This document shows, piece after piece, positions 12,809 through 47,894 of a stretch of 64,000 bases of DNA. The position numbers and the translations under genes were made by a program. The DNA is from Natronorubrum bangense. GTDB lineage: Archaea > Halobacteriota > Halobacteria > Halobacteriales > Natrialbaceae. Position 1 is the first letter of the stretch. Every line of letters begins with the position of its first letter. The stretch is from assembly GCF_004799645.1 (NCBI RefSeq), contig NZ_CP031305.1:1054001-1118000 (forward strand), in the 5' to 3' direction. The notes beneath the pieces are model-generated. The model was not told the DNA's origin. It made no database searches and saw only the letters and a list, made by a program, of their open reading frames with translations.

Positions 12809-12819
12809 GTCGCTCCCCG

Positions 12820-12824
12820 TTTTT
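12820..12824 (+). terminator. T-tract terminator after the acyl-CoA dehydrogenase gene
   Basis: A run of five T preceded by CCCCG, 11 nt after the stop, fits the T-rich intrinsic termination signal of archaea. It sits between two convergent genes. Confidence 0.5.
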
Positions 12825-12826
12825 CG

Positions 12827-17238: not shown

Positions 17239-18027
17239 ATGCCGACCACTCCCCGCAGCAACCGGCTTCGACAACCCCTCGAGGACGACGCCGTCGCTCT
17301 CGGCATCCTCGAGAACACGTACAATCCAACGCTCGTCGAGTTCTACGGCGAGCTCGGGCTGGATTTCGTCTGGATCGACCTCGAGCACGCCGGCCCGAGT
17401 CCGTGGGACGGCGACCGACTCGAGGCCCTGCTTCGGGCCGCGGACGTAACCGAGACGGAACTGCTCGTTCGCCTGCCCGAACCCGATCCGGGAATGATCC
17501 GAAAAGCGCTCGACGCCGGCGTCCGCTCGCTGTTCGTCTCGCGGATCGAGACGGCCGACGAAGTCCGGCAGGCGCTCGAGGCCTCCCGGTTCGAGTACGA
17601 CGGCGACCCCGGAAGACGCGGCTTTGCAAGCCCCCGTGCGAGCCGCTGGGGGACGGCCGACGACTACGCCGGCACCGAAGACGACGAAATCGTCCTCGGC
17701 GTGACGATCGAGAATCCGACGGCGGTCGACAACATCGACGACATCCTCGCAGTGCCCGAACTGGGCTTCGTCTTCGCCGGTCCGCTCGATCTCGCTGTGT
17801 CAACGGGCCATCCTGGGGAGCCGACCCACGAGGACGTCGAGCAACACGTTGACCGGATTCGAGAGGCAGCGCTCGAGGCCGACGTCCCGCTCGGCGGGCT
17901 CGGCTTCGGAATGGACGACGTCAACGAGAAGGCCGAAGCGGGCTACCAAATCCTGAATATAGGGAGTACTACCGGTGCCCTGCAGGGGACGGTACAGTCG
18001 TGGCTCGACGAGTACGGCAGTGGCTAA
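17239..18027 (+). CDS. HpcH/HpaI-family aldolase
   Basis: A 262-residue class II aldolase of the phosphoenolpyruvate/pyruvate superfamily. FVWIDLEHAG supplies the substrate-proximal acidic residue and the catalytic His; VRLPEPDP, VTIENPTAV and FAGPLDLAVSTG are the conserved metal and loop motifs. The family cleaves 4-hydroxy-2-oxoacids, such as 2-keto-3-deoxy sugars or hydroxyketopimelate, to pyruvate and an aldehyde, using a divalent cation. The usual length is ~250-270. Its own TATA-like TTTATT lies ~25 nt upstream. No sugar or aromatic pathway genes adjoin it. Confidence 0.88.
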   Translation: MPTTPRSNRLRQPLEDDAVALGILENTYNPTLVEFYGELGLDFVWIDLEHAGPSPWDGDRLEALLRAADVTETELLVRLPEPDPGMIRKALDAGVRSLFVSRIETADEVRQALEASRFEYDGDPGRRGFASPRASRWGTADDYAGTEDDEIVLGVTIENPTAVDNIDDILAVPELGFVFAGPLDLAVSTGHPGEPTHEDVEQHVDRIREAALEADVPLGGLGFGMDDVNEKAEAGYQILNIGSTTGALQGTVQSWLDEYGSG

Positions 18028-26178: not shown

Positions 26179-28149
26179 ATGGGACAGACTCTCACCGAGA
26201 AGATTCTCGACGATCACCTCGTCGAGGGCGAACTCGAGACCGGCGAGGAGATCGGGATCGAGATCGACCAGGTACTTACCCAGGACACGACCGGGACGAT
26301 GGTCTGGCTCCAGTTCGAAGCGATGGGACTGGACGAAGTCCAGACTGAGATCGCCGCCCAGTACTGTGACCACCAGACCTACCAGTTCGACTTCAAGAAC
26401 ACGGACGACCACCGTTTCCTCCGCTCCGCTGCCGGCACATATGGCGCTCATTTCTCTCGCCCCGGCAACGGTATCTGTCACAACGTCCACCGCGAGAACT
26501 TCGCAGCCCCCGGGAAGACGCTGCTTGGCTCTGACAGCCACACCCCAACGCCCGGTGGAATCGGCGAACTCGCCATCGGTTCCGGCGGGATCGACGTCAC
26601 CGTTGCGATGGGTGGCGCACCCTACTACATCGAGATGCCCGAAATCGTCAGCGTCCGTCTCGAGGGCGAACTCCCCGAGTGGGCCACCGCGAAAGACGTC
26701 ATCTTGGAACTGCTCCGTCGCCTCTCCGTCAAAGGCGGCGTCGGCAAGATCCTCGAGTACACCGGCCCCGGCGTCGAGTCGCTCACCGCCCCCGAGCGGA
26801 TGACGATCACCAACATGGGAACGGAACTCGGCGCGACGACGTCGATCTTCCCAACCGACGAGCAGACCAAAGACTACCTCGAGCGCGTCAACCGCGGCGA
26901 GGAGTACGTCGAGCTCCAGCCCGACGACGACGCCGAGTACGACGACGAGATCGTCGTCGACCTTTCGGATCTCGAGCCGCTGATCGCACAGCCCTCGATG
27001 CCGGACAAGGTCGTTCCCGTCAGCGAAGTCGAAGGCGAATCCGTCGAGCAGGTCATCGTTGGCTCCTGTACGAACGGTGGCTACGAGGACATCCTCCCCG
27101 TCGCCAAGATGCTCGAGGGCCGCGAGACCTCGATGGAGACCGAGACGATCGTCGCCCCCGGCTCCAAGCAGGCCTCTGAGATGCTCGCCCGTGAGGGCTG
27201 GGTCGCGGAGATGATGGCTGCTGGCGTCAACTTCTCGGAAGCCACGTGTGGTGCCTGTATCGGTATTGGCCACGTGCCTGCCTCCGATTCGGTCTCGCTG
27301 CGAACCTTCAACCGTAACTTCGAGGGTCGCTCGGGTATCGAAGACGACAACGTCTACCTCTGTTCGCCGGAGGTCGCGGCCGCAGCCGCGCTCAAGGGAG
27401 AAATCATCGATCCGCGCAACCTCGCCGACGAGCTTGGAGACCTCGAGGCACCCGGCGTCGAGCTTCCTGACGAGTACGACGGCTCCAAGACGGACCTCAT
27501 CGCCCCTGACGAGGCCGTCGACGACGAGCTCATCAAAGGTCCGAACATCGGCGACGTCCCGCTGAAAGACCAGCTCGGAACCGACATCTCCGGCGAGGCC
27601 CTGCTCAAGATGGAAGACAACATCACGACCGACCACATCATTCCTGCAACGCAGGACATCCTGATGTACCGGTCGAACGTCCCCAAACTGAGCGAGTTCA
27701 CGCTCTCGCGTGTCGACGACACCTTCGCACAGCGCGCACTCGACGCCGACGGTGGCTTCCTCGTCGCTGGCGAGAACTACGGCCAGGGCTCCTCGCGAGA
27801 ACACGCCGCGCTTTGTCCGATGTATCTCGGCATCGAGGGCGTCCTCGCACAGAGCTTCGCCCGCATCCACCGTGCGAACCTCTTTAACTTCGGGATCATC
27901 CCGCTGACGATCGACGAGGAGACCTACGAGTCGATCGACCAGGGCGACGAGATCGAGATCGTCGACGACGTCTACGAGGCCGTCACGAGCGGGCAAGAAG
28001 AGTTCACGGTCCGCGTCGGTGACGAGGAGTACACCGCCACGCTGGACGCCTCCGAGCGCGAGCGCGACATCCTCGCCGCCGGTGGCAAACTCGCCTGGAC
28101 GAAAGAGCAGGCCGAAGGCGGCAGCGGTGCCGCACCCGCCGACGACTGA
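26179..28149 (+). CDS. acn: aconitate hydratase
   Basis: A 656-residue enzyme of the TCA cycle that isomerises citrate to isocitrate. The three [4Fe-4S] ligand cysteines are in GSCTNGG near residue 296 and TCGACIG near residue 356; substrate motifs GSDSHTPTPGGIGELA and GENYGQGSSREHAAL (swivelling domain, near 530) are intact. The domain order is N-terminal aconitase core, then the small C-terminal swivel domain, the arrangement of the mitochondrial-like archaeal group. A long antisense frame is a codon-use artefact. It stands alone and is followed by a T6 terminator. Confidence 0.96.
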   Translation: MGQTLTEKILDDHLVEGELETGEEIGIEIDQVLTQDTTGTMVWLQFEAMGLDEVQTEIAAQYCDHQTYQFDFKNTDDHRFLRSAAGTYGAHFSRPGNGICHNVHRENFAAPGKTLLGSDSHTPTPGGIGELAIGSGGIDVTVAMGGAPYYIEMPEIVSVRLEGELPEWATAKDVILELLRRLSVKGGVGKILEYTGPGVESLTAPERMTITNMGTELGATTSIFPTDEQTKDYLERVNRGEEYVELQPDDDAEYDDEIVVDLSDLEPLIAQPSMPDKVVPVSEVEGESVEQVIVGSCTNGGYEDILPVAKMLEGRETSMETETIVAPGSKQASEMLAREGWVAEMMAAGVNFSEATCGACIGIGHVPASDSVSLRTFNRNFEGRSGIEDDNVYLCSPEVAAAAALKGEIIDPRNLADELGDLEAPGVELPDEYDGSKTDLIAPDEAVDDELIKGPNIGDVPLKDQLGTDISGEALLKMEDNITTDHIIPATQDILMYRSNVPKLSEFTLSRVDDTFAQRALDADGGFLVAGENYGQGSSREHAALCPMYLGIEGVLAQSFARIHRANLFNFGIIPLTIDEETYESIDQGDEIEIVDDVYEAVTSGQEEFTVRVGDEEYTATLDASERERDILAAGGKLAWTKEQAEGGSGAAPADD

Positions 28150-28169
28150 TCGCGATCCGTTGACCTCCG

Positions 28170-28175
28170 TTTTTT
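28170..28175 (+). terminator. T6 terminator after aconitase
   Basis: A run of six T after CCTCCG, about 20 nt past the stop codon, matches the oligo-T intrinsic terminators of archaea. The remainder up to 28431 shows no gene. Confidence 0.55.
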
Positions 28176-28431
28176 GCCGTTGATCCTCGAGGAGTGACGA
28201 CGCGCGCTCCATACTCTCAGCAGTTCACTCGACAGCCACCATCAGGCTCACCGTGGGCGCACGGTTGCGGTCGGCTTCACGGGATGTCTGGAGGGGAGCG
28301 ACACGCTCTCAGCCGGGACAGCCGGCAACGCTGACTCGAGGATATGGCGCGAGCGCTGAACGAGCACGACCACACGTGGGTAGGCCGTCGAAAGCACCCA
28401 GAGCGTGTAAAACTGCGGCCAGAAACGGTGA

Positions 28432-29229
28432 TCAGCTCTCGAAGTAGCGGCTGAGCAGTGCCGCCACCACCATGATGACGACGAGAACCGTCGAGAGCGC
28501 GTTGATCGTCGGCGTCAATCCGGTTCGAAGCATGGTGTAGATCTCGACCGGGACGGTACTCGAGGCCGGTGAGATGAGAAACTGCGTCGCGGTGAACTCG
28601 CCGAAGGAGACGACGAAGGCGACGAAAAAGCCCGCCAGCAGCGCCGGCGAGATGATCGGCGCGGTGACGTTCAGGAACGTCACCGTCGAGTCAGCACCGA
28701 GCACGCGAGAGGCCTGCTCTAGGTCCTCATCGAAGGTTACCAGCTGTGACCGGACGAGCAAGAAGACGTACGGCACCGTCAGGATCGAGTGGCCGACGAT
28801 CAGCGCCGGGTAGCCACTCGAGACGTCGACCATCCCGAAGTAGCGGATCAGCGCGATCCCGGTGATAACGGGCGAGATGATCATCGGCAGCAGCATGATC
28901 GTCGAGAGCTGCTGTTTGTACGGGAACTCGGCGCGAACGAAGCCGACCGCGGCGGCAGTGCCAAAGGCGACGGCCAGCAGCGACGCCGCTGTCGCAACGA
29001 TGAAACTCGTCACCAGCGCGCCCAAGAGTTGACTGTCGGTCAGTAACTCCGTGTACCACTGGAGGCTGATACCGTCGTAGGGGATCGCCGGGAACGTCTG
29101 GCCGGTAAAGGACGTGAGGACGACGATCGCCACCGGCACGAGCAAGAACGCATAGATGAGCAACAGGACGAATAGCAACGTGCCCTGTCGTACCAGGCTG
29201 GCCCGACGAATCGAGGAGGTCACGCTCAT
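28432..29229 (-). CDS. ABC transporter permease (PotC-like)
   Basis: A 265-residue inner-membrane permease with six helices and the EAA loop (LEQASRVLGADSTVTFLNVTAP) that docks on the ATPase. It is the last gene of a four-gene importer operon and overlaps the PotB-like gene by 4 nt. The set resembles spermidine/putrescine and iron/2-aminoethylphosphonate importers; the binding protein decides specificity. Confidence 0.88.
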   Translation of the reverse strand: MSVTSSIRRASLVRQGTLLFVLLLIYAFLLVPVAIVVLTSFTGQTFPAIPYDGISLQWYTELLTDSQLLGALVTSFIVATAASLLAVAFGTAAAVGFVRAEFPYKQQLSTIMLLPMIISPVITGIALIRYFGMVDVSSGYPALIVGHSILTVPYVFLLVRSQLVTFDEDLEQASRVLGADSTVTFLNVTAPIISPALLAGFFVAFVVSFGEFTATQFLISPASSTVPVEIYTMLRTGLTPTINALSTVLVVIMVVAALLSRYFES

Positions 29230-30074
29230 AGGTTACCGAGCGCCTCCTGAAGGTTGAAGACGGCGTTGAACGCCGCGATGAACGCGACGAGCAAGACGGT
29301 GTAGATCACCGCCAGCGCCGATGCCAGCTGAATGTTGTACGCCTCGAGGAACGTGCGCGCGATCTCGTTTGCGATCATCGATTGGTTCGGTCCACCGAGA
29401 ACTGCAGGCCCGAGGAACGACCCGGTCGCAAGGATGAACACGATAACACCTGCGGCGACGATCCCTGGCATGGATAACGGCAACACGACTTCGCGGATCG
29501 TTCGGAACTGCCCGGCGCCGAGCACTCGAGATGCATTGATCGTCTCGTGGTGGATCGCGTTCAGTGAGTTGTAGATCGGCAGTACGGCGAACGGAAGGTA
29601 CGCGTTAGTCAACCCGAGAACGACGGCTGTCGAGGTAAACAACAGGTCAATCTCGAGGCCGGTGACCTGTGCAAGCGGTCCCGTCGGTGAGAAAAACAAC
29701 ATCAAGCCGAAGTAGCGGATGATGTAGGCGATCCACAGCGGGACGACGACCAGCGTCAACAGGAGTCGAACGCGCTTGCTCGCGAAGACGAGGTAGTACG
29801 CGAGCACGTACGCGAACACGAGTGTGAGTACGGTCGTTACGAACCCGTAGATGAACGACCGAACGAACGCACTGACGTAGACGCCGCCGGTCGCCCGGTG
29901 GTAGGCCTGGAAGAGGCTGCCGTCGCCGAAATTAAGACTCTCGACGACCAGAAACAGGATCGGGAACACGAAAAAGAGCGTGACCCAGCCGATGCCGATT
30001 GCCACGAGGTGGCGATTACTGATGCGCTCGGTGAGCCAACTGGGGACCGGACTCCGGTCAACGACGACGCTCAT
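29226..30074 (-). CDS. ABC transporter permease (PotB-like)
   Basis: A 282-residue permease with six helices and an EAA loop (NASRVLGAGQFRTIREVVLP) near residue 185. Its N-terminus is cytosolic and polar (MSVVVDRSPVPSW). It pairs with the PotC-like protein to form the channel. It overlaps the ATPase gene by 4 nt upstream and the PotC gene by 4 nt downstream, a sign of tight translational coupling. Confidence 0.88.
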   Translation of the reverse strand: MSVVVDRSPVPSWLTERISNRHLVAIGIGWVTLFFVFPILFLVVESLNFGDGSLFQAYHRATGGVYVSAFVRSFIYGFVTTVLTLVFAYVLAYYLVFASKRVRLLLTLVVVPLWIAYIIRYFGLMLFFSPTGPLAQVTGLEIDLLFTSTAVVLGLTNAYLPFAVLPIYNSLNAIHHETINASRVLGAGQFRTIREVVLPLSMPGIVAAGVIVFILATGSFLGPAVLGGPNQSMIANEIARTFLEAYNIQLASALAVIYTVLLVAFIAAFNAVFNLQEALGNL

Positions 30075-31171
30075 ACCACGACCACCGACTCGGGGTCGAA
30101 CGTAACCGTCACCGCATCACCGACTGCGATGTCCGGGAACCGAGGCGTGTTCGCCATCGCCGTTTCGCCGCTCTCGAGTGTGACGGTGACCTCGGTCCGA
30201 TTGCCGAGGTTGGAGACCTTTTCGACGGTGCCGGGGAACGCGTTGTCGGCGGTCGCTGCTGCGGTCGGTGCCGCCGACCCCGTTTGTGAGACGGTTGTGC
30301 CACCGTCCGCGGTCGCCGAAACGGGTTCGACGTCGACGTCTTCGGGGCGAACGAACAGACTGACGTCCTCGCCGTCGTCGTGGTCGCCGGTGACGGTGAC
30401 GCGAGTTGCGTCGGTCTCGACGGTCGGCTGCTCGTCGACGGTCGTGACAGTCCCACCAAACGTAGTGGATTTCCCGACGAATGTGGCGACGAACTCGTTG
30501 GCCGGCTCCTCGTAGATCGTTTCGGGATGGGCTGCCTGCTGTTTCTGCCCGTCGTCGAGGACGACCACCTTGTCAGACATCGAGAGCGCGTCCTCCTGAT
30601 CGTGTGTGACGTACAGCGATGTGACGCCGAGTTCGCGCTGCAGTGTCATCAGCCACTCGCGCATCTCCTCGCGAAGGACGCGGTCCAGTCCCGTCAACGG
30701 CTCGTCCAGCAACAGGATGTCGGGTTCGTATGCGAGCGCTCGAGCGAGCGAGACGCGTTGTTGCTGTCCACCCGAGAGTTCGTCCGGGCGATGATCGCCG
30801 TGGTCGGGAAGATCGACGAGTTCCAAGAACTCTTGGACCTGCGCATCGCGTTCCTCGGCATCGTAGCCGTGCATTCGGAGGCCGTAGGCGATGTTCTCTC
30901 GGACCGTCATGTGGGGGAACAGTGCCGTACTCTGGAACGCCATTCCGATATTGCGGTCCTCAGGTGCCAGGTCGGTGACGTCCTCGCCGCGGAGTTTGAC
31001 CTGGCCGTCGGTTGGCTCACGGAGTCCGGCGATCATATGCAACAGCGTCGTCTTCCCACAGCCAGACGGTCCGAGCAGTGTGACGAAGTCGCCTTCGTCG
31101 ATTCGGAAACTGACGTCGTCGACGGCGAGCAGCTCTCCGTAGTACTTCGTGAGTCCGGTGACTTCGAGCAT
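30071..31171 (-). CDS. ABC transporter ATPase (PotA-like)
   Basis: A 366-residue ATPase. Walker A GPSGCGKTT is near residue 34, the signature LSGGQQQRVSLARAL near 133, Walker B ILLLDEPLTGLD near 153, and the switch His in YVTHDQEDAL near 190. A C-terminal TOBE domain follows. The insertion between TOBE strands near residues 290-320 is Thr/Ala-rich, an acidic halophile feature. The gene lies 6 nt after the substrate-binding protein gene. Confidence 0.92.
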   Translation of the reverse strand: MLEVTGLTKYYGELLAVDDVSFRIDEGDFVTLLGPSGCGKTTLLHMIAGLREPTDGQVKLRGEDVTDLAPEDRNIGMAFQSTALFPHMTVRENIAYGLRMHGYDAEERDAQVQEFLELVDLPDHGDHRPDELSGGQQQRVSLARALAYEPDILLLDEPLTGLDRVLREEMREWLMTLQRELGVTSLYVTHDQEDALSMSDKVVVLDDGQKQQAAHPETIYEEPANEFVATFVGKSTTFGGTVTTVDEQPTVETDATRVTVTGDHDDGEDVSLFVRPEDVDVEPVSATADGGTTVSQTGSAAPTAAATADNAFPGTVEKVSNLGNRTEVTVTLESGETAMANTPRFPDIAVGDAVTVTFDPESVVVV

Positions 31172-31177
31172 CGTTAG

Positions 31178-32254
31178 TTATGTCTGTTTGACTTCCTGGA
31201 ACTGTTCGGACCACTCGTCTTGCAGCGGCAGGATCTTCGACCAGTCGCGGAAGGCGAGATCCTCGACGGGCGCGTAGTCCGGGAGGTCAGTCATCTCCTC
31301 GGGTGGATCCTCGATCTGTACCGTGTAGTTCATTGCATCCGACATGTCGATCAGATTCTCTCGCTCGTAGGTGAAGTCCAGCAGCTCGTGAACGGTCTCT
31401 CGGTTCTCAGTGCCGTCGACAACCGCGAGCGTGTCGGTCCAGGCCATCGCTCCCTCCTCGGGCATGACGTACTCGATGTGGTCATAGCCGTCCTCCTGGA
31501 GTGCGAGGACGCGGCCACCCCACGCCTCACAGACTGTCGCGTTCTCCTGGCGCAAGTACTGGATCGACGTCGCGCCGTCGGACCAGTAGCTAAAGCAGTT
31601 CTCGTTCTGTTCTTCGGCCTCGTCGATCACGTCCTCGAATAGGTCCTCGTCGTCAGCGGCGTCGTTGATGTCGGCGTCGATCGCAACCGCGCAGTTCGAA
31701 AACCGGTCGACTGCCCGGTCGAGCAAGGCGAGTTCGCCGTCGAACTCGTCGTCTTTGATGTCGTCCCACGAGGTGAGCTCGCGGTCGACGAGCTCGGTGT
31801 TGTACGCGTAGCCCGTCGCACCGTTCTCTCGGATCAGCCCGATCGTGTCGCCGTCCTCGACGAGGAACGTCAGGTCCTGGGCCCCATCGCGGATGTTGTC
31901 GGTGTAGTTCGGGACGTCGTCGACGTCGATCGGCTCGAGGATGGGCTCGTCCTCGGCCGCTGCCTGCGCCATCCCCGTGTCGTTGAGCGCGACGATGTCG
32001 AACTCGCCGGGGTTTTGCTGGATCATCGAAATCATCTCCGTGGTCCCACCGGCCGACGTCCCCTCGATTTCGTACTCCGAGTCGTCGGCCCAGCGTTCGA
32101 AGATCTCCATCTGAGACTCCTGCGTGTTGCCACCGAACCCGAGGAATCGGAGTGTACTCGAGCTGCCTCCGAGACAGCCCGCAACACCCGCGAGTGATCC
32201 TGCACCGATCGTCGCCAGCGCCTTCCGCCTTGTTACCATGTTACGGTCAGTCAT
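31178..32254 (-). CDS. Tat-lipoprotein substrate-binding protein (PotD-like)
   Basis: A 358-residue extracellular binding protein. The N-terminus has the twin-arginine motif TRRKALAT, a hydrophobic core and the lipobox AGVAGC, giving a lipid-anchored protein exported by the Tat route as usual in haloarchaea. The mature part has periplasmic-binding-protein features (NGATGYAYNTELVDRELTSW, WGGRVLALQEDGYDHIEYVM) of the PotD/PotF type. Aspartate-rich motifs such as EEGAMAWTDTLAV may bind a cation. The start lies 30 nt downstream of a strong TATA box. Specificity may be for polyamines or a related cation. Confidence 0.88.
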   Translation of the reverse strand: MTDRNMVTRRKALATIGAGSLAGVAGCLGGSSSTLRFLGFGGNTQESQMEIFERWADDSEYEIEGTSAGGTTEMISMIQQNPGEFDIVALNDTGMAQAAAEDEPILEPIDVDDVPNYTDNIRDGAQDLTFLVEDGDTIGLIRENGATGYAYNTELVDRELTSWDDIKDDEFDGELALLDRAVDRFSNCAVAIDADINDAADDEDLFEDVIDEAEEQNENCFSYWSDGATSIQYLRQENATVCEAWGGRVLALQEDGYDHIEYVMPEEGAMAWTDTLAVVDGTENRETVHELLDFTYERENLIDMSDAMNYTVQIEDPPEEMTDLPDYAPVEDLAFRDWSKILPLQDEWSEQFQEVKQT

Positions 32255-32282
32255 GGGTCTGACAACTGGTATGATAAGGAGC

Positions 32283-32290
32283 TATATAAT
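32283..32290 (-). promoter_or_regulatory. TATA box of the importer operon
   Basis: TATATAAT on the plus strand reads as ATTATATA on the minus strand, 29-36 nt upstream of the start of the binding-protein gene at 32254. The surrounding 150 nt separating this operon from the divergent crotonase operon are AT-rich and should hold both promoters. Confidence 0.65.
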
Positions 32291-32408
32291 TCTAACGCCG
32301 ACTCCGAATTAGAAACGGGATTTTAAGAAAACCTCCGAAATAGCTAAGTGAGTTAGGAGAAATTATGACTAGTAACTCTCTCGCTACGGACGAGGGAAAA
32401 CGAGAACA

Positions 32409-33230
32409 ATGGACTGCACTGATGATCGAGGAGTGGACACTGTCGAACCGACAGCGACTGATGCCGTGGAGTACGACCTCGACGGCGACGTCGCCACAGT
32501 CACGTTGACACGCCCGGATCGGCTCAACGCCGTGACGAAGGAACTGTACGCAGGCGTCCTTGGTGCACTCGAGCGAGCGAGTGACGAGGATGCACGCGTC
32601 ATCGTTATCCAGGGAGCTGGCCGGGCATTCTGCGTCGGCGCGGACATGAAAGCCCACGGCGAGCGTGAGCGAACCGCCGGCGAGAAGCGCGAGTACGCCT
32701 GGGCCGCCCAGCGCGCCTGTCGGGCGCTTCAGACCCACGAGCGACCCGTCGTCGCAAAGGTACAGGGGTACGCGATTGGTGCCGGCGCCGAACTGGCACT
32801 CAGCGCGGATCTGATCGTGATGGCCGACGACGCAGAGATGCGATTTCCCGAGACCGGGATCGGAACCTACGTCGGCGGCGGTGTCACCTATCGGCTTCCC
32901 GATCGTGTCGGCACTGCGACGGCAAAGCGACTGTTGCTCACTGCAGCCAGCGTCGACGGCGACGAGGCCGCGGCGATCGGGCTCGTCGACGAGACTGTCC
33001 CTCCCGACGAGTTGAACGCTGCCGTCGACGATCTCGCGGGCGAGATTGCCGGCAACGCGCCGATCCCAGTCGCGTTCGCGAAAGAACAACTGGACCGGCG
33101 GCCGGACGATCCCCAGCTCGCGTTGACCGCGGAAGTCGACGCGCTGCTTACCTGCATGGAAACTGACGACTGGCAGGAGGGTGTCGATGCGTTCGCCGAG
33201 GACCGCGAACCGATCTTCGAGGGGCAGTAA
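32409..33230 (+). CDS. enoyl-CoA hydratase (crotonase family)
   Basis: A 273-residue crotonase. GAGRAFCVGADMKA near 69-82 is the oxyanion-hole loop, GYAIGAGAELALSAD carries E128 and FPETGIG carries E148, exactly 20 residues apart as in the catalytic E144/E164 pair of rat enoyl-CoA hydratase. It should hydrate 2-enoyl-CoA. The first ~20 residues are acidic and not conserved; a later start is possible. It is the first gene of a four-gene operon (2-nt gap to the next) divergent from the importer. Confidence 0.9.
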   Translation: MDCTDDRGVDTVEPTATDAVEYDLDGDVATVTLTRPDRLNAVTKELYAGVLGALERASDEDARVIVIQGAGRAFCVGADMKAHGERERTAGEKREYAWAAQRACRALQTHERPVVAKVQGYAIGAGAELALSADLIVMADDAEMRFPETGIGTYVGGGVTYRLPDRVGTATAKRLLLTAASVDGDEAAAIGLVDETVPPDELNAAVDDLAGEIAGNAPIPVAFAKEQLDRRPDDPQLALTAEVDALLTCMETDDWQEGVDAFAEDREPIFEGQ

Positions 33231-33232
33231 TC

Positions 33233-35437
33233 ATGCGTGATCCGATCGATCGCATCTTAGAGCCGTCGTCGATCGCCGTCGTCGGTGCCTCGTCCGATCC
33301 GTCCAAACGCGGCTACCAGGCCATCAAGACCCTCCAGGCGGGTGGCTTCGAGGGCACGATCTACCCGGTCAACCCGTCGGCCGACGAGATCCGCGGCCTC
33401 GAGGTCTTCGCCTCGATCGCCGACGTCCCCGAGCCGGTCGACCTCGCGTTGATCGTCGTTCCGGGACCGATCGTCCCGTCCGTGCTCGAAGACTGCGGCG
33501 AGATCGACGTCGGTGGCGCAGTCGTCATCGCCGTCGGCTTCGGCGAGACCGACGAGAAAGGCGAAGCCCTCGAGGAGGAAATCGTCTCGATTGCGGCCGA
33601 GAACGATGTCAGACTCGTCGGGCCGAACACGTCCGGGCTGATCAACGTCAGCGACGGGGCGAACCTCGTCGGTGCTGACGGCGTTCCCGAGGGTGACCTC
33701 GGACTGCTGTGTCAGAGCGGGAACCTCGCTATCGCGCTCTTTACCGAAGCCGCCGGCCGGGAAGGCGTCGGCTTCAGCCACTACGTTGGCGTCGGCAACG
33801 AGGCTGACCTCCAGTTCGACGAGTATCTCCCCTACTTCGAGCGAACCGACGAAACCGACGCCGTCGTCTGTTACGTCGAAGGCTTCTCCGACGGTCGCGC
33901 GTTCCTCGAGCAAGCTCGCGAAACTGGAGCGAAGACGCCGATCGTCGTCTGCAAGAGCGGCCGCTCGGACGTCGGCAAGCAGTCGGCGAGTTCCCATACG
34001 GGGTCGCTTGCGGGCGATGCAGCAGTCGCGGACGCCGTCTTCCAGCAGGCGGGCGTCGTCAGCGCCGATCGATCCGACGAACTGCTGGCGGCAGCCGACG
34101 CGCTGGCCTCCCAGCCACCCGTCGATGGCGGGAACGTCGCGGTCCTCGCCGACGGCGGCGGCCACGCGACGCTGGCAGCCGACGCCCTCGCCGAGCGTGG
34201 CCTCTCGGTGCCGCAGCTGGCAGCCGACACCCAGCGCCGACTCGAGAGCGTCCTTCCCGACGCGGCGAGCGTCCGAAACCCAGTGGACGTCGCCGGCGGG
34301 ACCGACGATGATCCCTCGGTGTTCGCCGACTGTGCGCTGGCGCTGTTCGACGATCCGAACGTCGACGCCGTGTTGCTCTCGGGACTGTTCGGCGGCTACG
34401 GCCAGCGCTTTACCGACGACCTCGCGCCGATCGAGCAGGCCGCCGCAGCGGAGATCGCCGACGCCGCCGCGGCGACTGAGACGCCGCTGGTCATCCAGAG
34501 CGCCTACGAGAGCACCGAGCCCGAAACCCACACCATCCTCCGAGAGCACGACGTTCCGGTGTACGAGTCGCTGGACATTTCTGTCGCCTGCCTCGATGCG
34601 CTGTCGACGTACGGCACGCACCTGCAGGTCGCCGACCAAAAGAGTTCGTTCGAGCTCGATTCCGAGTCCGCCGACGGCCCCGACGGCGTTCGAGCGCTCG
34701 AGGACCGTGCCACCGACGGCACCCTCTCGGAGTACGACGCCAAAGCGCTCCTCGAGGAGTACGGCGCGCCGGTGACGCCGTACGCGCTCGCCGAAACGGC
34801 GGCTGACGCCGAACGCATTGCCGCCGAGTTCGACGGCCCCGTTGCGATGAAGGTCGTCTCGCCGGATATCATTCACAAAACCGAAGCCGACGCCATCGCA
34901 CTAGACGTCGCGGACGAGTCAGTTCGATCGACACACGAGAGCGTGCTCGAGAACGCTCGAGCCTACGATCCAGACGCCGCGATCGACGGCGTGCTCGTTT
35001 CGCCGATGCGGACCGACGGCGTCGAGGTGATCGTCGGTGCGACCCACGACGAGCAGTTCGGCCCCGTCGTCATGTTCGGCCTCGGTGGGGTCTTCGTCGA
35101 GGTGCTCGAGGACGTTGCCTTCCGTGCCGCGCCACTGACCGAACACGACGCGCGGGCGATGCTCGGCGACATCGACGCACAGGACGTTCTCGAGGGCGCT
35201 CGCGGCGATCCGCCGGTTGACCGTGACGCGCTCGTCGACGTCCTCCTGTCGGTCTCCCAGCTCGTCGCCGACCACCCCGAAATCGCGGAGATCGACCTGA
35301 ATCCGGTGCTCGCGGGCGAGGACGGTGCCGAGATCCTCGACGCGAGTATCGTCCTCGAGTCAGGCGATGGCGACGACGACCCCGACAGGCAGACACAGGA
35401 GCCAGATGCGGTCCCCGATGGAGGTGTCGATGAATGA
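33233..35437 (+). CDS. acyl-CoA synthetase, ADP-forming (fused alpha-beta)
   Basis: A 734-residue fused enzyme. The N-terminal CoA-binding Rossmann domain reads SIAVVGASSDPSKRGYQA; SSHTGSLAGD near 250 holds the histidine that is phosphorylated; the C-terminal part from ~500 is an ATP-grasp domain with MKVVSPDIIHKTEADA. The enzyme interconverts acyl-CoA + ADP + Pi and acid + CoA + ATP. Bacterial and archaeal members activate acetate, propionate, phenylacetate or longer acids. Start 2 nt after the crotonase stop; the end overlaps the next gene by 4 nt. It could activate the acid produced by the nitrilase family protein in this operon. Confidence 0.92.
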   Translation: MRDPIDRILEPSSIAVVGASSDPSKRGYQAIKTLQAGGFEGTIYPVNPSADEIRGLEVFASIADVPEPVDLALIVVPGPIVPSVLEDCGEIDVGGAVVIAVGFGETDEKGEALEEEIVSIAAENDVRLVGPNTSGLINVSDGANLVGADGVPEGDLGLLCQSGNLAIALFTEAAGREGVGFSHYVGVGNEADLQFDEYLPYFERTDETDAVVCYVEGFSDGRAFLEQARETGAKTPIVVCKSGRSDVGKQSASSHTGSLAGDAAVADAVFQQAGVVSADRSDELLAAADALASQPPVDGGNVAVLADGGGHATLAADALAERGLSVPQLAADTQRRLESVLPDAASVRNPVDVAGGTDDDPSVFADCALALFDDPNVDAVLLSGLFGGYGQRFTDDLAPIEQAAAAEIADAAAATETPLVIQSAYESTEPETHTILREHDVPVYESLDISVACLDALSTYGTHLQVADQKSSFELDSESADGPDGVRALEDRATDGTLSEYDAKALLEEYGAPVTPYALAETAADAERIAAEFDGPVAMKVVSPDIIHKTEADAIALDVADESVRSTHESVLENARAYDPDAAIDGVLVSPMRTDGVEVIVGATHDEQFGPVVMFGLGGVFVEVLEDVAFRAAPLTEHDARAMLGDIDAQDVLEGARGDPPVDRDALVDVLLSVSQLVADHPEIAEIDLNPVLAGEDGAEILDASIVLESGDGDDDPDRQTQEPDAVPDGGVDE

Positions 35438-36252
35438 CAGATCCCACTGAAACCGAGACCGACGAACCGCCCGTCCGCGTCGACCGTCCCCGCGAGCACG
35501 TCGCTCGCCTCACACTCGACCGCCCGGATGCGATGAACGCCTACGACGAGTCACTCTTGCGGACGCTCGTTGCCCGCCTCGAGGAACTCGACTCGGACGA
35601 CGACGTTCGCGCCATCATCCTGACCGGCGCAGGTGATCGGGCCTTCTGCAGCGGCGTCGACCTCGAGAACATGCCGCTGACCCCCGAGATGGAGTTTGCC
35701 GACTACGAGGCGGGACTCGGCCTGTTCCAGAACGTCGTTCGCACCCTGCGGACGATTCAGACGCCGGTCGTCGGCGCACTCAACGGCTACGCGCTCGGGG
35801 CCGGCTGTGATACGGCACTCGCCTGTGACATCCGCATCGTCAGCGAGAACGCGGCCATCGGCGAGACGTTCATCGACGTCGGCTTCGTCCCCGGCGACGG
35901 CGGCGCATACCTCCTGCCGCGACTGATCGGCGAAGCCCGCGCGAAAGAGCTGATCTTCACCGGCCGCCACCTCGAGGGCGAAGAGATCGTCGACTGGGGC
36001 CTCGCCCGTGAGTGTGTCCCCGCCGACGAGTTGCTCGAGACAGCCGAGTCGTTCGCCGCCGAACTCGCCACCCAGCCGCCGATCGCACTCGGCTTCAGCA
36101 AGTCGCTAGTCAACGAGAGCGCCGACGTCGACCTCGAGACGGCGTTCGAACACGCCACGCGCGCTCAGCGGATCTGTGCCCAGACCGACGATCACGCGGA
36201 AGCGGTCGATGCGTTCGCCGAAAACCGCGAACCGGAGTTTACGGGCGAATGA
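35434..36252 (+). CDS. crotonase-family enzyme with altered acid-base residues
   Basis: A 272-residue crotonase paralogue of the gene at 32409. The oxyanion-hole motif TGAGDRAFCSGVDLENM is intact, but the first catalytic Glu position holds D126 (GAGCD) and the second holds F146 (GETFIDVG). An Asp in PGDGG (D155), typical of enoyl-CoA isomerase/PaaG-like members, is present. I infer isomerase or a hydrolase activity rather than plain hydration. It overlaps its neighbours by 4 nt on both sides. The close coupling suggests consecutive action on one CoA ester. Confidence 0.88.
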   Translation: MTDPTETETDEPPVRVDRPREHVARLTLDRPDAMNAYDESLLRTLVARLEELDSDDDVRAIILTGAGDRAFCSGVDLENMPLTPEMEFADYEAGLGLFQNVVRTLRTIQTPVVGALNGYALGAGCDTALACDIRIVSENAAIGETFIDVGFVPGDGGAYLLPRLIGEARAKELIFTGRHLEGEEIVDWGLARECVPADELLETAESFAAELATQPPIALGFSKSLVNESADVDLETAFEHATRAQRICAQTDDHAEAVDAFAENREPEFTGE

Positions 36253-37076
36253 GCCTCGACACCGTTGCACTCGTCCAGTTCGATCCCACGCTCGGCCCGG
36301 CCGACGACGGCACCACAGCGCGACTCTGCGATCGGATTCGAGAGACCGCAGCCGAGGCGGACCCGGATCTGATCGTCTTTCCCGAACTCGCGACGACCGG
36401 CTACTCGATCTTTGATCAGATCGATGCCTGTGCAGAGCCGATTCCAGGGCCGACGACACGGGCCATCGGCGAGGCGGCCGCTGCCGTCGAGTCACACGTC
36501 CTCGTTGGAATGGCGGTCCGCGACGAGCGTGGTGTTCGAAACAGCGCCGTCTGGATCGATCGGAGAGGGGCGGTCCGGGCCCGCTACAACAAGCGAAACC
36601 CGTGGGGTGACGAACGCGACGTCTTCGTTCCCGGCGACGACATCCTCGTCCTCGAGTGTGAGGGCCGAACGCTCGGCATCCAGATCTGTTACGATCTGAA
36701 CTTTCCTGCACAGAGCGCGGCGTTTGCACGGGACGCCGTCGACGCGATCATCAACATCTCCGCGTGGTCGGTTCCGATGGCAGGCGACTGGGATCGGCTG
36801 CTCCCCGCTCGAGCACTCGAGAACGGGGCGTACGTCTTTGGCTGCAACCGGGCCGGATCCGAGGGAGCGCTGTCGTTTTACGGCCACACCACGGCCTACG
36901 AGCCCGATGGCTCGATCGCAAAACGACTCGACGACCAGTCCGGCACGCTCGTCTCTCAGATCACCCACGAGACACTCCACGACGAACGGGAGCGAAACCC
37001 GATGCGACGCGACCGACGCGCCGATCAACCAACGACGAATCGAGTTTCAATCGGTTCTGGGGGTGGGAAGCACTGA
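36249..37076 (+). CDS. carbon-nitrogen hydrolase (nitrilase superfamily amidase)
   Basis: A 275-residue enzyme with the Glu-Lys-Cys triad: E46 in VFPELATTGY, K115 in YNKRNPW and C147 in QICYDLNFP. Members hydrolyse linear amides, nitriles, N-carbamoyl amines or 5-aminovaleramide. Motif spacing rules out glutamine-dependent NAD synthetase, as no second domain is present. The start at 36249 overlaps the crotonase stop by 4 nt; a longer frame inside that gene is not real. Being encoded with CoA ligase and crotonases, it likely releases a carboxylic acid or amine for CoA activation. Confidence 0.9.
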   Translation: MSLDTVALVQFDPTLGPADDGTTARLCDRIRETAAEADPDLIVFPELATTGYSIFDQIDACAEPIPGPTTRAIGEAAAAVESHVLVGMAVRDERGVRNSAVWIDRRGAVRARYNKRNPWGDERDVFVPGDDILVLECEGRTLGIQICYDLNFPAQSAAFARDAVDAIINISAWSVPMAGDWDRLLPARALENGAYVFGCNRAGSEGALSFYGHTTAYEPDGSIAKRLDDQSGTLVSQITHETLHDERERNPMRRDRRADQPTTNRVSIGSGGGKH

Positions 37077-37154
37077 CATGTCCCCCAGCGGGATGTTTGG
37101 TGCATGATTCAGGGGTTTCGACGACATTTCAAGGAGTAGCAACAACCTAGTACT

Positions 37155-37652
37155 ATGGCCGAAATCACACTCGACGAAACCGACTTCCGCTTGCTCAGAG
37201 AGCTAGATGAGAACGGAGAGATCGATGCCGACGAGATCGCTGAAGAACTCGACGTCAGCCAGTCGACAGTCTACTATCGACTCGAAAAATACCGCGAACA
37301 GGGGATCCTGACGGGAACGATCTCCCATCTCGATCGACACAAACTCGGCCTCGGTATGACGGCAATTTCTGAGATCAAGACCGTCTACGGCCCTGAAGCG
37401 AAGGAGGTCGGTGAACGACTCGCACAGCTTTCGGGCGTTCAACAGGTGTATTCGATGATCGGGGAGATGTCGTTCTACGTCATCTCTCACGTTCGCGATC
37501 ACGACCACCTGCAGTCACTCATCGAGGAAATTATTGAAACCGACGGTGTCGAAAACTCCGCGACGCACATCGTTCTTCGGACGTTCAAAGAGGAGTCGCG
37601 ACTGCTGGTCAACTACGATGACGAGGATTTAGAACAGCTGTTCAACAGCTGA
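37155..37652 (+). CDS. Lrp/AsnC-family transcriptional regulator
   Basis: A 165-residue Lrp-type regulator with N-terminal winged helix (DETDFRLLRELDENG, then SQSTVYYRLEKYREQG) and C-terminal RAM domain (VYSMIGEMSFYVISHV). It follows the four-gene catabolic operon by 78 nt on the same strand and probably controls it and the importer. Helix-turn-helix residues differ from those of the Lrp gene at 12827-13342, so the two likely bind different sites. Confidence 0.92.
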   Translation: MAEITLDETDFRLLRELDENGEIDADEIAEELDVSQSTVYYRLEKYREQGILTGTISHLDRHKLGLGMTAISEIKTVYGPEAKEVGERLAQLSGVQQVYSMIGEMSFYVISHVRDHDHLQSLIEEIIETDGVENSATHIVLRTFKEESRLLVNYDDEDLEQLFNS

Positions 37653-37762
37653 GACCGACCACGTGTCGACAGCGGGATACCGGCGGCTGCGCTCAAGACC
37701 GACTCGACAACGAGAGACGGGACACCGTCAGCCCAACACGGAAACGGCAACGACTGGGTCGC

Positions 37763-38344
37763 CTACTCGAAGCAGGCGACTGGGTCGCCGGCGTCTCGAG
37801 GATCCGGGTCGAACGATGGCTCATCCGCGAGTCCGCCGCGGTATCGTGCCCGGAGCACGACGTTCTCATCGACGTAGTAGGTAACGCGAGTGTCTCGTTC
37901 GGTTGATGCGTCGGTCTGGCGTGTCGACGTCGTCAGATCGTACACGATCGAAGCCAGTACAGCCTCCATCTCAGTGTCCGATTCGATACCATCGATCTGT
38001 CGTTCCTGAAACCTGAACTCGAACTGGTCCGCCTCCGAGCCGTACGTCTCGAGAAACGTGTTTCGTCGATAGGCCTGCTCGAACTCGAGGACGTACTGAT
38101 CAGCGCCGTCGGACACCGACGACGGCGGTGAGGGATACGGCGCTGGTTCGACGTCGTCTGCGTGAGACAGCGTCTCTGGATCGGGGCGGTCACTGTCGGC
38201 GCAGTCGTATCTGTCCGGGGGAACGATTCCAGGGTCGGTCGGCTCGTCGTGGCTCGTGAATTCCCTCTCGAAACAGCCCGCAAGCGCCACCGCAGACGGT
38301 ATCGCAGCGGCGAGGAGGGAACGACGGGAGCGGGGAGGGCGCAT
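37763..38344 (-). CDS. predicted lipoprotein of unknown function
   Basis: A 193-residue protein. The N-terminus MRPPRSRRSLLAAAIPSAVALAGC has a twin-Arg-like basic stretch, a hydrophobic core and the lipobox ALAGC, so it should be exported and lipid-anchored. The mature domain is acidic and begins with a Pro/Asp-rich linker, followed by QYVLEFEQAYRRNTFLETYG and VTYYVDENVVLRARYR, repeat-like beta strands. No family recognised. A TATA box and a 6-bp inverted repeat sit just before the start. Confidence 0.78.
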   Translation of the reverse strand: MRPPRSRRSLLAAAIPSAVALAGCFEREFTSHDEPTDPGIVPPDRYDCADSDRPDPETLSHADDVEPAPYPSPPSSVSDGADQYVLEFEQAYRRNTFLETYGSEADQFEFRFQERQIDGIESDTEMEAVLASIVYDLTTSTRQTDASTERDTRVTYYVDENVVLRARYRGGLADEPSFDPDPRDAGDPVACFE

Positions 38345-38348
38345 AGTG

Positions 38349-38367
38349 TAATGTCAGCAATACATTA
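38349..38367. promoter_or_regulatory. inverted repeat between TATA box and start of the lipoprotein gene
   Basis: TAATGT (38349-38354) and ACATTA (38362-38367) are perfect inverted repeats with a 7-nt spacer. The TATA element (CATATATAATG on the minus strand) overlaps their outer edge at about 38364-38374. A regulator bound here would block initiation. Confidence 0.6.
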
Positions 38368-38475
38368 TATATGGTTTTCGAACTCGTTACAGCTGACTGG
38401 CGTTTTGACACCGGCATCAAAAATAGCGTCGCGTCCTCAAGTGTGCGCTGTGAGCAACCGAACAGGGCAGTGACG

Positions 38476-45040: not shown

Positions 45041-46105
45041 TTAACAGGTGTCGGGACCGAATAGCTGTATGCTGTCCGGAGGGAACTCGACCCAGAGCGT
45101 CTCGCCAGTTTCGTTCGGGGGTTCGGACTGCTCGACGACGAGTTCGTCACCCGTTATGGACTGCACGGTCACGTCGTACCGACGGCCGATATCCGCGATA
45201 TGGACGACTTCACACGGCAGCGACGGCGTCGTCCCGGGGGTCGCAGAGTGCCGAAGCGAGAGGTCTTTCGGGCGAATATGACACGTGACCGGCGTTCCCG
45301 CTGACAGCTCACGCGCTGTGTTGTCGAGTCTGATCTCGTGTGTCCCCAGTGCGATCGTAAGTGGGTGTTGGTCGACGACGGTCGCCGCGAGCGTGTTCGA
45401 GCGGCCGAGAAACGACGCCACGAAGGGGGTTGGTGGCGACTCGTAGAGCGTTCGTGGCTGCCCAACGCCAGCAACCTGCCCGTCGTTCATCACCACGAGC
45501 CGATCCGCAAGCGCCATCGCCTCCTCCTGATCGTGAGTAACGAAGAGTGTCGTAACTCCGGTTTCGCGCTGGATACGTGCGATCTCATCTCGAAGCTGTT
45601 CACGTAACGTTCGGTCGAGCGCCGACAGCGGCTCGTCGAGGACGAGGACGTCCGGCTGTGGCGCCAGCGCTCGAGCCAACTCCACGCGGCGCTGTTGGCC
45701 ACCGCTCAGTTCCGAGGGAGCGGCGGTCCGCTGGTCGTGGAGATCGACCAGCTCGAGGTAGTCGGCCACGAGTTCGTCACGCCGAGCAGGTTCGATATCG
45801 CGTGCGTTGAGTCCGTATGCGACGTTCTCACTGACAGTCATATGTGGGTACAGCGTCGGTTGCTGGAAGACGATGCCGACGCGGCGTGTCTCGGGTGGGG
45901 TGTCGGTGACGTCTTCGCCGCGAAGCACCACTCGGCCCGTTGTCGGTCGAACGTGGCCGGCGATCGCCTGAACGATCGTCGTCTTTCCACAGCCACTCGG
46001 GCCGAGCAGTGCGACCAGTTCTCCCGACTCGAGGCCGAACGAGACGTCGTCGACGGCCAGTTCGGTGCCGTATCGGTGCGAGAGCTGCTCAAGTTCGAGG
46101 ATCAT
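45041..46105 (-). CDS. wtpC: ABC transporter ATPase, molybdate/tungstate type
   Basis: A 354-residue ATPase of the oxyanion-importer type: Walker A GPSGCGKTT near 33, LSGGQQRRVELARAL near 131, Walker B VLVLDEPLSALD near 152, followed by a TOBE-like domain. It is the third gene of a wtpA-B-C operon and overlaps the permease gene by 4 nt. It powers import of molybdate or tungstate needed for molybdopterin or tungstopterin enzymes. Confidence 0.9.
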   Translation of the reverse strand: MILELEQLSHRYGTELAVDDVSFGLESGELVALLGPSGCGKTTIVQAIAGHVRPTTGRVVLRGEDVTDTPPETRRVGIVFQQPTLYPHMTVSENVAYGLNARDIEPARRDELVADYLELVDLHDQRTAAPSELSGGQQRRVELARALAPQPDVLVLDEPLSALDRTLREQLRDEIARIQRETGVTTLFVTHDQEEAMALADRLVVMNDGQVAGVGQPRTLYESPPTPFVASFLGRSNTLAATVVDQHPLTIALGTHEIRLDNTARELSAGTPVTCHIRPKDLSLRHSATPGTTPSLPCEVVHIADIGRRYDVTVQSITGDELVVEQSEPPNETGETLWVEFPPDSIQLFGPDTC

Positions 46106-46920
46106 TCGTCGACCACCGTCGGGACCCGTCCAAGTCGCTGGACTGCTGCGAGGACGACGAGCGTAATGGCGAGGAGTGCAAGCCCCAGCGGGACGATAGC
46201 GTCGATCCCGCCGGCGATGAAGTCAACCCAAATACGGGTTGGCATCGTTCGTGGGTTGTAGGCGACCATCATCGTCGCACCGAACTCCCCGATCGCCCGT
46301 GCGAACGTCAGGACGATCCCCGCGACGATCGCACCACGAGCCATCGGAATCGAGACGTTCCAAAACGTCGAGAGCGGCCCGTATCCCAGCGACCGTGAGG
46401 CCTGTTCCAACCGCTCGTCGATGGCACCGAAGCCAGCTCTGGCGGTGATGATGACGAACGGCGCGGCGACGAACGTCTGTGCGAGGATGACACCGAGGAG
46501 ACTGTCTGTAAGCGAGATCCCGACGGCAGCAGCAGCCGCGCCGATCGGTGTAAACCGGCCAACGGCCGTCAGCAACATCGCACCGCCGACGACCGGTGGG
46601 ATGATCAGCGGCAACACGACCAGTGCCTCCACGAGACGCTTACCCACGAACGACGTGCGAGCGAGTACGTACGCGAGCGGGACGCCGAACACGGTCGCGA
46701 TTGCCGTCGAGATGGGGGCCGTAAGCAGCGAGTTCCGGATCGCCACCTGCGCTTCCGGCGTCGACAGTCCAGCGACGACGTTTGATATCCCGGTCCGGGA
46801 CAGGAACGCGACGAACGGAATCGCAAAGTAGAGCAGAATCACCCCACCGAGGACGGCTGGGAGCAGGAGCTCCGGCATTCGCCGAGAGTAGCCGGACAGG
46901 GGCGGCCGAGAGAGGCTCAT
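46102..46920 (-). CDS. wtpB: ABC transporter permease, molybdate/tungstate type
   Basis: A 272-residue permease with six helices. The first hydrophobic segment (LLLPAVLGGVILLYFAIPFV) follows a basic N-terminus, and the EAA loop (LEQASRSLGYGPLSTFWNVS) contacts the ATPase. Its sequence resembles ModB/WtpB permeases. It overlaps wtpA by 4 nt and wtpC by 4 nt. Confidence 0.88.
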   Translation of the reverse strand: MSLSRPPLSGYSRRMPELLLPAVLGGVILLYFAIPFVAFLSRTGISNVVAGLSTPEAQVAIRNSLLTAPISTAIATVFGVPLAYVLARTSFVGKRLVEALVVLPLIIPPVVGGAMLLTAVGRFTPIGAAAAAVGISLTDSLLGVILAQTFVAAPFVIITARAGFGAIDERLEQASRSLGYGPLSTFWNVSIPMARGAIVAGIVLTFARAIGEFGATMMVAYNPRTMPTRIWVDFIAGGIDAIVPLGLALLAITLVVLAAVQRLGRVPTVVDE

Positions 46921-47894
46921 ACGTCGATTACCTCCGGAAGCGCCCCCTCCGGACGCGGGAGGCTCTCGCTAACAGTGAGTCCTGCATCGACGAGCAGGTT
47001 CGGGTTGTCGATGAGAAACTGGACGAGCTGGTGGCCCGCATCGGGGTCGTCTGCCTCGTCGTTGACCGTGGCGTTGTACAGTATTGGCCGCCCTTCAGCA
47101 GTGTATCCCTCCTCATCCGTCGTGAACTCGACTGTCGCGTAGTGGGCTTCCAGTTCGGGGTTTGCGAAATTGTACGCGTCGGGAAACTCGAGAAACGGCA
47201 TCTCGTGATCGACCGCCATATTGTGATAGACGACCGACGCCGCTCGAGACCCGCTTTCGACGCCCGCCATCATCTGTGGCTCTTCGGGCTCCTCGTAGAC
47301 GCGCTCCAGTAGTTCGTCTTGGAGCCCCTCGAGGCCGTGTTCGGCCTCCGCAAGCTCGAACGCCTGGACGGCGCGATAGCCGAGCGGGTCGAGATCCGGA
47401 TCACCGATCGAGAGATCGCCGTCGTCACTCTCGAGGGCTAGCTCGTACCACGGGATACCGTCCTCGAGGTCCTGTCCAAACGCCGTCTCCGGGTTGTATC
47501 CGATCCCGAGACTGTTGGTCGCAAACTCGACGTCCCAGTCGGTGAACTCGCCGTACAAACGATCACGGAGCAGCGTCGAATCGGCGCTCACGATGACGTC
47601 GGGCTGTTTGGTTCGGTCTTCGACCATCCGCATCACCGCGTTGGCCCCATAGTACTCTCCGTGAACCGAGATTCCAGTTTCGTCCTCGAACGCCGGGCCG
47701 ATGTGGGATTCGAACGTCTGTGCGAGACTGCCAGCCGAAAGCACACGTACCGAGTTCGTCCCAGTTCCCAAACAGCCAGCGACACCGATGCCGACGAGGC
47801 TACCCGCTGTGGCGAGAGCTGTACGGCGGCTGACGCCGTCCCCATCATAATCGCCACCAAGATCCATATGACACAGTTTGGTTTCCTCGTTCAT
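46917..47894 (-). CDS. wtpA: molybdate/tungstate-binding lipoprotein
   Basis: A 325-residue binding protein. After a short start region, VSRRTALATAGSLVGIGVAGC gives a twin-Arg signal and the lipobox VAGC. The mature domain has SIGDPDLDPLGYRAVQAFEL, the oxyanion-binding motif of WtpA proteins. It binds tungstate or molybdate outside the cell. An in-frame ATG at 47867 is an alternative start. The promoter region upstream is AT-rich, but I see no clear TATA box. Heads the wtpABC operon. Confidence 0.85.
   Translation of the reverse strand: MNEETKLCHMDLGGDYDGDGVSRRTALATAGSLVGIGVAGCLGTGTNSVRVLSAGSLAQTFESHIGPAFEDETGISVHGEYYGANAVMRMVEDRTKQPDVIVSADSTLLRDRLYGEFTDWDVEFATNSLGIGYNPETAFGQDLEDGIPWYELALESDDGDLSIGDPDLDPLGYRAVQAFELAEAEHGLEGLQDELLERVYEEPEEPQMMAGVESGSRAASVVYHNMAVDHEMPFLEFPDAYNFANPELEAHYATVEFTTDEEGYTAEGRPILYNATVNDEADDPDAGHQLVQFLIDNPNLLVDAGLTVSESLPRPEGALPEVIDV

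Follow-up and report, generated by a model that had tools for sequence, protein, structure and literature searches.

Organization of the locus

A stretch of 64,000 nucleotides from the chromosome of the haloarchaeon Natronorubrum bangense (contig NZ_CP031305.1), hereafter the window, contains a nine-gene unit at positions 28432–37652 that joins a Pot-type ATP-binding cassette (ABC) importer to two crotonases, an ADP-forming ligase of coenzyme A (CoA), a nitrilase-superfamily amidase, and an Lrp/AsnC-type regulator. Each of these parts belongs to a known family, and their combination is an uncharacterized, importer-linked operon for CoA-dependent catabolism. Its genes, with their Pfam families, are the following:

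28432–29229, minus strand: potC-like ABC permease, PF00528 (BPD_transp_1), conserved in the unit
29226–30074, minus strand: potB-like ABC permease, PF00528 (BPD_transp_1), conserved in the unit
30071–31171, minus strand: potA-like ABC ATPase with a TOBE domain, PF00005 (ABC_tran) and PF08402 (TOBE_2), conserved in the unit
31178–32254, minus strand: potD-like solute-binding protein, SBP_bac_8
32409–33230, plus strand: cro1, crotonase of the enoyl-CoA hydratase type, PF00378 (ECH_1)
33233–35437, plus strand: lig, single-chain ADP-forming acyl-CoA ligase, CoA_binding_2, Succ_CoA_lig and ATP-grasp_5 (PF13380, PF13607, PF13549)
35434–36252, plus strand: cro2, atypical crotonase, ECH_1 by Pfam, with D126, F146 and a PGDGG motif
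36249–37076, plus strand: nit, nitrilase-superfamily amidase, PF00795 (CN_hydrolase)
37155–37652, plus strand: lrp, Lrp/AsnC-type regulator, PF01037 (AsnC_trans_reg) and PF13412

The initial annotation of this DNA had described four enzyme genes with tight junctions of 2 to 4 nt, divergent from a four-gene Pot-type importer and followed by an Lrp gene, and this layout agrees with the gene calls and with Pfam: cro1 and lig are separated by a 2-nt gap, lig/cro2 and cro2/nit share 4-nt ATGA overlaps, lrp starts 78 nt after nit, and potDABC diverges from cro1-lig-cro2-nit across an intergenic region of 154 bp, with potB and potC overlapping by 4 nt. The enzyme classes assigned there (amidase, ADP-forming CoA ligase, hydratase, second crotonase) are likewise borne out by families and catalytic residues. 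In Pfam and NCBIfam, none of the nine proteins scored high enough to be called an equivalog of known function, and RNA elements, looked for in 28000–38400, were not found.

Conservation and distribution

The distribution of the unit was assessed with the cro2 family as query against 84,980 species genomes; it returned 13 close loci at 70–96% identity, after which the next matches drop to about 43%. The whole nine-gene arrangement occurs in 12 of these 13 loci, all on public haloarchaeal contigs, and again on one Haladaptatus plasmid and in two further genomes (L167 and L176), giving 16 genomes with the present one counted; they cover at least the families Natrialbaceae, Haloarculaceae, Haloferacaceae, and Haladaptataceae. 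The closest public unit is that of Natronorubrum thiooxidans, whose cro2 is 96% identical. Even so, the gene is sparse, with a cro2 ortholog in 13 of 125 genomes of the family and in 15 of 392 of the order. Conservation of gene order, named in the initial annotation as a check on its reading, with absence from every relative as a refutation, is therefore found in relatives and beyond the family: because all nine genes are found again in this arrangement in 15 further genomes of haloarchaea, their order is not accidental and they form a real unit.

The other parts diverge in step with cro2, the pairwise identities correlating at r = 0.71–0.95 (potA lowest). Natrinema cro2 is 87% identical to that of Haloarcula and 74% to that of the present genome, which belongs to the same family as Natrinema; since the Natrinema copies are nearer to those of Haloarcula than to those of their own family, their relationship suggests either block transfer of the unit or the sorting of two old lineages. 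In one of the 12 loci with the whole arrangement, that of Natronomonas sp. CBA1123 (L072 6129–8319, the same locus as L047), lig lies in two overlapping reading frames, from a frameshift or a sequencing error.

The CoA ligase

The lig product has the complete domain set of the ADP-forming ligases (ACD superfamily), namely CoA-binding, ligase, and ATP-grasp domains, with an invariant phosphohistidine motif SSHTGS (H255). Its best match of solved structure is the ADP-forming 4-hydroxybutyrate-CoA ligase 8wzu (467 bits), with which it shares the full-length domain order, differing by a motif GLFGGYGxRF that marks the lig clade; against the corresponding family model, NF045493, it scores 453 bits for a cut-off of 1300.

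As for its relatives, six sister ligases with 47–50% identity (L049–L052, L054, L055), which differ at the GLFGGYGxRF motif, were examined in their gene context: BCCT betaine transporters stand beside two of the six, enoyl/crotonyl-CoA-reductase-like proteins beside four, and a crotonase beside most; a Rieske protein resembling glycine-betaine monooxygenase is found in one of the clusters and class III aminotransferases in two. These clusters are in themselves likely to encode undescribed haloarchaeal routes for betaines or amino acids.

Another member of the superfamily is DddX, an ATP-dependent lyase of dimethylsulfoniopropionate (DMSP) (PMC8163506), whose structure 7cm9 is matched by lig at 2.4e-79. 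The DddX gene cluster resembles the unit in its ligase superfamily, in the adjacent importer for a zwitterion, and in the enoyl-CoA product of DddX; it differs in having a BCCT importer and DddB/DddC, where the unit has an ABC importer, extra crotonases, and a nitrilase, and no DddB/DddC. A DddX-type DMSP lyase activity of lig was considered and rejected: A354, Leu, and Ile occupy the positions aligned with W391, E432, and F435 of DddX, so that both the cation-π pair (W391/F435) and the base (E432) are absent.

The crotonases and the amidase

In the cro1 product, both hydratase glutamates, E128 and E148, are present and invariant in five orthologs, and the best match in the PDB is the 3-hydroxypropionyl-CoA dehydratase 5zai. 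The cro2 product has D126 and F146 at these two positions, in agreement with the initial annotation, which had called this second crotonase atypical; a PGDGG motif is invariant in its haloarchaeal orthologs. Its structure model (predicted local distance difference test score, pLDDT, of 92.9) is closest by target TM-score to the isomerase PaaG (0.96, with 40% identity); the column of the catalytic aspartate of PaaG (D136, in a GLxPD motif) is occupied by G154, which D155 adjoins. The pair recalls PaaF and PaaG of the phenylacetate pathway, one Glu-Glu hydratase and one crotonase of PaaG fold, but it differs in the alignment of D136 with G154 and in the lack of other paa genes in the unit. High-identity relatives of cro2 were found only in haloarchaea; the bacterial homologs (Streptomyces, Lutimaribacter, and others) have 35–43% identity, and none of them has the full unit beside it.

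The nit product has, by alignment, an intact E46-K115-C147 triad, and its nearest curated model is the amidohydrolase PRK10438 at 97.5 bits, below the cut-off of 249; PRK10438 corresponds to YafV of Escherichia coli, an ω-amidase.

The importer and its predicted ligand

The potD product has an N-terminal RR and a lipobox-like AGC, and its structure model (pLDDT 89.5) finds PotD-family proteins at the top of a Foldseek search (E 8.5e-23, the best being PotD of Streptococcus). For the two permeases, the best NCBIfam models are PotC for the potC product (159 bits) and PotB for the potB product (137 bits), both below cut-off, while the binding protein scores 42 against the PotD polyamine-binding model, whose cut-off is 582.

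The pocket residues were derived by aligning the protein with PotD, to which it is about 20% identical, and their geometry is that of the alignment alone. Among the residues that bind the ligand in PotD, three are retained (W229 as W245, W255 as W272, and D257 as D274), while E171 becomes D183, D168 becomes R180, and S232 becomes R248. The predicted pocket consists of R142, R180, D183, R184, W245, R248, W272, and D274; together with N91 and D92, these residues are invariant in ten unit homologs aligned with the protein of the window, and as a set they occur in none of 17 paralogs. All 28 members of the binding-protein family compared have R184, W245, and R248; some sister proteins also have R142, and one distant protein has the W/D pair. 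The marks of the unit clade are N91, D92, R180, D183, and the W272/D274 pair taken together. The acidic trio that holds the amino groups of the polyamine in PotD, D168/E171/D257, reads here R180, D183, and D274. Since acidic, aromatic, and basic residues occur together, the predicted pocket would suit a zwitterionic carboxylate, and a polyamine appears unlikely. Accordingly, the label "PotABCD-like" of the initial annotation stands for fold and family (SBP_bac_8 and the Foldseek match) and not for the ligand, given the replacement of D168 by Arg. Relatives of PotD specific for a zwitterion are known, such as PA0222, which binds γ-aminobutyrate (GABA) (PMC6829864). The polyamine importers PotABCD and PotFGHI and the GABA-binding Atu4243 and PA0222 resemble the unit in fold, gene set, and the retention of PotD W229/W255/D257; the unit differs by Arg in place of D168, by extra invariant Args, and by scores below every curated cut-off.

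The genomic context of related binding proteins adds to this picture. Sister proteins in Natribaculum and Halomarina adjoin methylmalonate-semialdehyde dehydrogenase (MMSDH) and an amidase of the hydantoinase/carbamoylase family, both above curated cut-offs, with class III aminotransferases likewise nearby; taken together, the contexts of the sister importers and ligases indicate β/ω-amino acids or betaines. In addition, the Natronococcus unit (L045 35–5624) has as neighbors a caprolactamase-like α subunit (523 bits, below cut-off; a family of ATP-dependent lactamases) and HyuB-like, isochorismatase-like, and isocitrate-lyase/phosphoenolpyruvate-mutase-like genes; the caprolactamase-like and isochorismatase-like neighbors fit ω-amino acids, as a single case.

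A different arrangement was seen at L203–L206 (genomes G120 and G144), where one Pot-type importer gene set adjoins four to five paralogs among PotD-type binding proteins, with acyl-CoA dehydrogenases and AMP-forming ligases in between; possibly, one importer is served by many binding proteins.

Core and exchangeable parts

Two genomes of another genus in the same family (L048 and L164) have cro1-lig-cro2 and an Lrp gene, whose product is 58–60% identical to that of the unit; their Pot-type importer is a different one, and a nitrilase is missing from their unit. Because these variants swap the importer and lack the nitrilase, cro1-lig-cro2 is the common core, and the nitrilase and this importer are accessory, exchangeable parts for substrate delivery. 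Six genomes (L067, L163, L168, L169, L171, and L172) have cro2 alone, and tblastn found no remnants of the unit next to these orphan genes; in one of them, of the family of the present genome (L163 5000–9600), the gene lies directly downstream of a 23S and 5S rRNA-like region.

An aldolase beside the variant units prompted consideration of an itaconate route, which uses a ligase, a crotonase, and an HpcH/HpaI lyase. This candidate was rejected: the aldolase is HpaI-like, it was seen to be conserved in just two genomes, both of the same genus, and HpaI-like aldolases occur elsewhere too, so it does not count as evidence. The window itself has a gene for an HpaI-type aldolase of the same family type at 17239–18027.

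Regulation

The Lrp protein has the two domains of its class, a helix-turn-helix (PF13412) and an AsnC ligand domain (PF01037). The intergenic region between the two transcripts has the following feature:

32333–32359, no strand assigned: 27-bp sequence with the inner dyad CTAAGTGAGTTAG (32344–32356), candidate Lrp operator

The dyad pattern, CTAAN5TTAG, has one match in the whole window, where 0.03 would be expected, and it is kept in relatives from Natronorubrum and Natronolimnohabitans (L065, L176, L063), with one change in Natronococcus (L064). The 27-bp sequence may serve as an operator for the regulator of the unit.

Proposed function and alternatives

The evidence from importer, ligase, and context agrees on a small nitrogenous zwitterion, though not on which one, and the reading preferred here, with a probability of about 0.5, is that of a substrate-inducible unit for the uptake of a small carboxylate of zwitterionic character, either an amino- or an onium-carboxylate, or of the corresponding amide, and for its catabolism via acyl-CoA. 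The Pot-type importer would take up a carboxylate of the β/ω-amino-acid or betaine class, or the amide of one; nit would convert the amide into acid and ammonia, and lig would join the acid to CoA as a thioester in an ADP-forming reaction that proceeds through its phosphohistidine. Then, cro1 would perform a syn elimination or addition of the (de)hydration type at C2–C3 of the acyl-CoA, and cro2, which lacks the hydratase glutamates, would shift a double bond or catalyze some other reaction of an enolate; the product, a 3-hydroxy- or enoyl-CoA, would enter β-oxidation. The Lrp protein may sense the compound and, acting on the intergenic region between them, control both transcripts. The initial annotation had proposed that the enzymes take an imported amide or amine to an acyl-CoA: the general idea of nitrogenous import survives, with the unit conserved across families, while a polyamine is improbable and the nitrilase and importer turn out to be accessory.

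Several observations weigh against this proposal. The likeness of nit to ω-amidases is weak (97 bits for a cut-off of 249), the pocket of the binding protein rests on the alignment at ∼20% identity, and cro2, standing alone in six genomes, may act outside the pathway of the unit. Moreover, a seventh and more diverged sister ligase (L053) adjoins a TctC-type binding protein and not BCCT, and the gene islands around some further sister binding proteins are rich in acyl-CoA dehydrogenases and AMP-forming ligases, with no obvious amine chemistry.

Among the alternatives, a dicarboxylic monoamide as substrate is doubtful, yet it accounts for several features: an ω-amidase-like nit would release the dicarboxylate, lig would form its mono-CoA ester, and cro2 and cro1 would work as a PaaG/PaaF-like pair on the unsaturated dicarboxyl-CoA. 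The best curated match of nit, PRK10438 (below its cut-off), and the PaaG-like fold of cro2 are in line with this route, as are the several Args that do not vary in the binding protein and the invariant Arg of GLFGGYGxRF in the lig clade, which aligns near the substrate segment of DddX and is absent from the sister ligases; however, the invariant W272 and D274, at the amine-binding positions of PotD, suggest a cationic group, and the two variant genomes have no amidase. Slightly less probable is a quaternary-onium route, in which carnitine, γ-butyrobetaine, β-alanine betaine, or DMSP is imported and activated by lig, the onium group is lost to give an enoyl-CoA, and cro1 hydrates it. The neighbors of the sister ligases (BCCT transporters, the Rieske protein, and the enoyl-CoA-reductase-like proteins) and the superfamily shared by lig and DddX speak for it, but the residues of DddX for this chemistry are missing from lig and the nitrilase would have no obvious role.

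A more speculative idea, to be given a lower chance again, is an archaeal CoA-dependent deamination of β-amino acids (or of amides or betaines), in which a crotonase-family enzyme would expel ammonia or an amine from the β-aminoacyl-CoA and the paired crotonase would process the enoyl-CoA, so that the two would stand in for the transaminase and semialdehyde dehydrogenase normally used. Compared with the catabolism of β-alanine and 3-aminoisobutyrate by ω-transaminase and MMSDH, in whose clusters the sister importers sit, the unit has neither enzyme, and a CoA ligase and crotonases instead. Finally, a true spermidine/putrescine importer that happens to adjoin an unrelated acyl-CoA operon is highly improbable: the Pot-type fold and families and the PotD proteins at the top of Foldseek would fit it, but the Arg at PotD D168, with more Args at aligned positions, and the PotD score of 42 for a cut-off of 582 disagree with such a ligand, and the importer and the enzymes are co-conserved across families.

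Other loci of the window

About 20 kb from the unit, at 8373–13342, genes for an APC-type permease, a class III aminotransferase, and an acyl-CoA dehydrogenase (weakly similar to FadE/glutaryl-CoA dehydrogenase), with an adjacent Lrp-like gene, form another amino-acid catabolic cluster. A second ABC importer, with ATPase, permease, and lipoprotein, lies at 45041–47894 and resembles importers for anions or metal oxyanions.

Significance

The initial annotation knew of no pathway with exactly this enzyme set, and no description of the gene set, of its exchangeable front end, or of the atypical crotonase clade was found in the literature searched. In conclusion, many haloarchaea have a compact catabolic unit that includes an importer and a regulator and can probably be transferred. 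Identification of its substrate would tell in one step what nine families of orthologs do, the atypical crotonase among them, and would show which nitrogenous solutes haloarchaea scavenge in brines.

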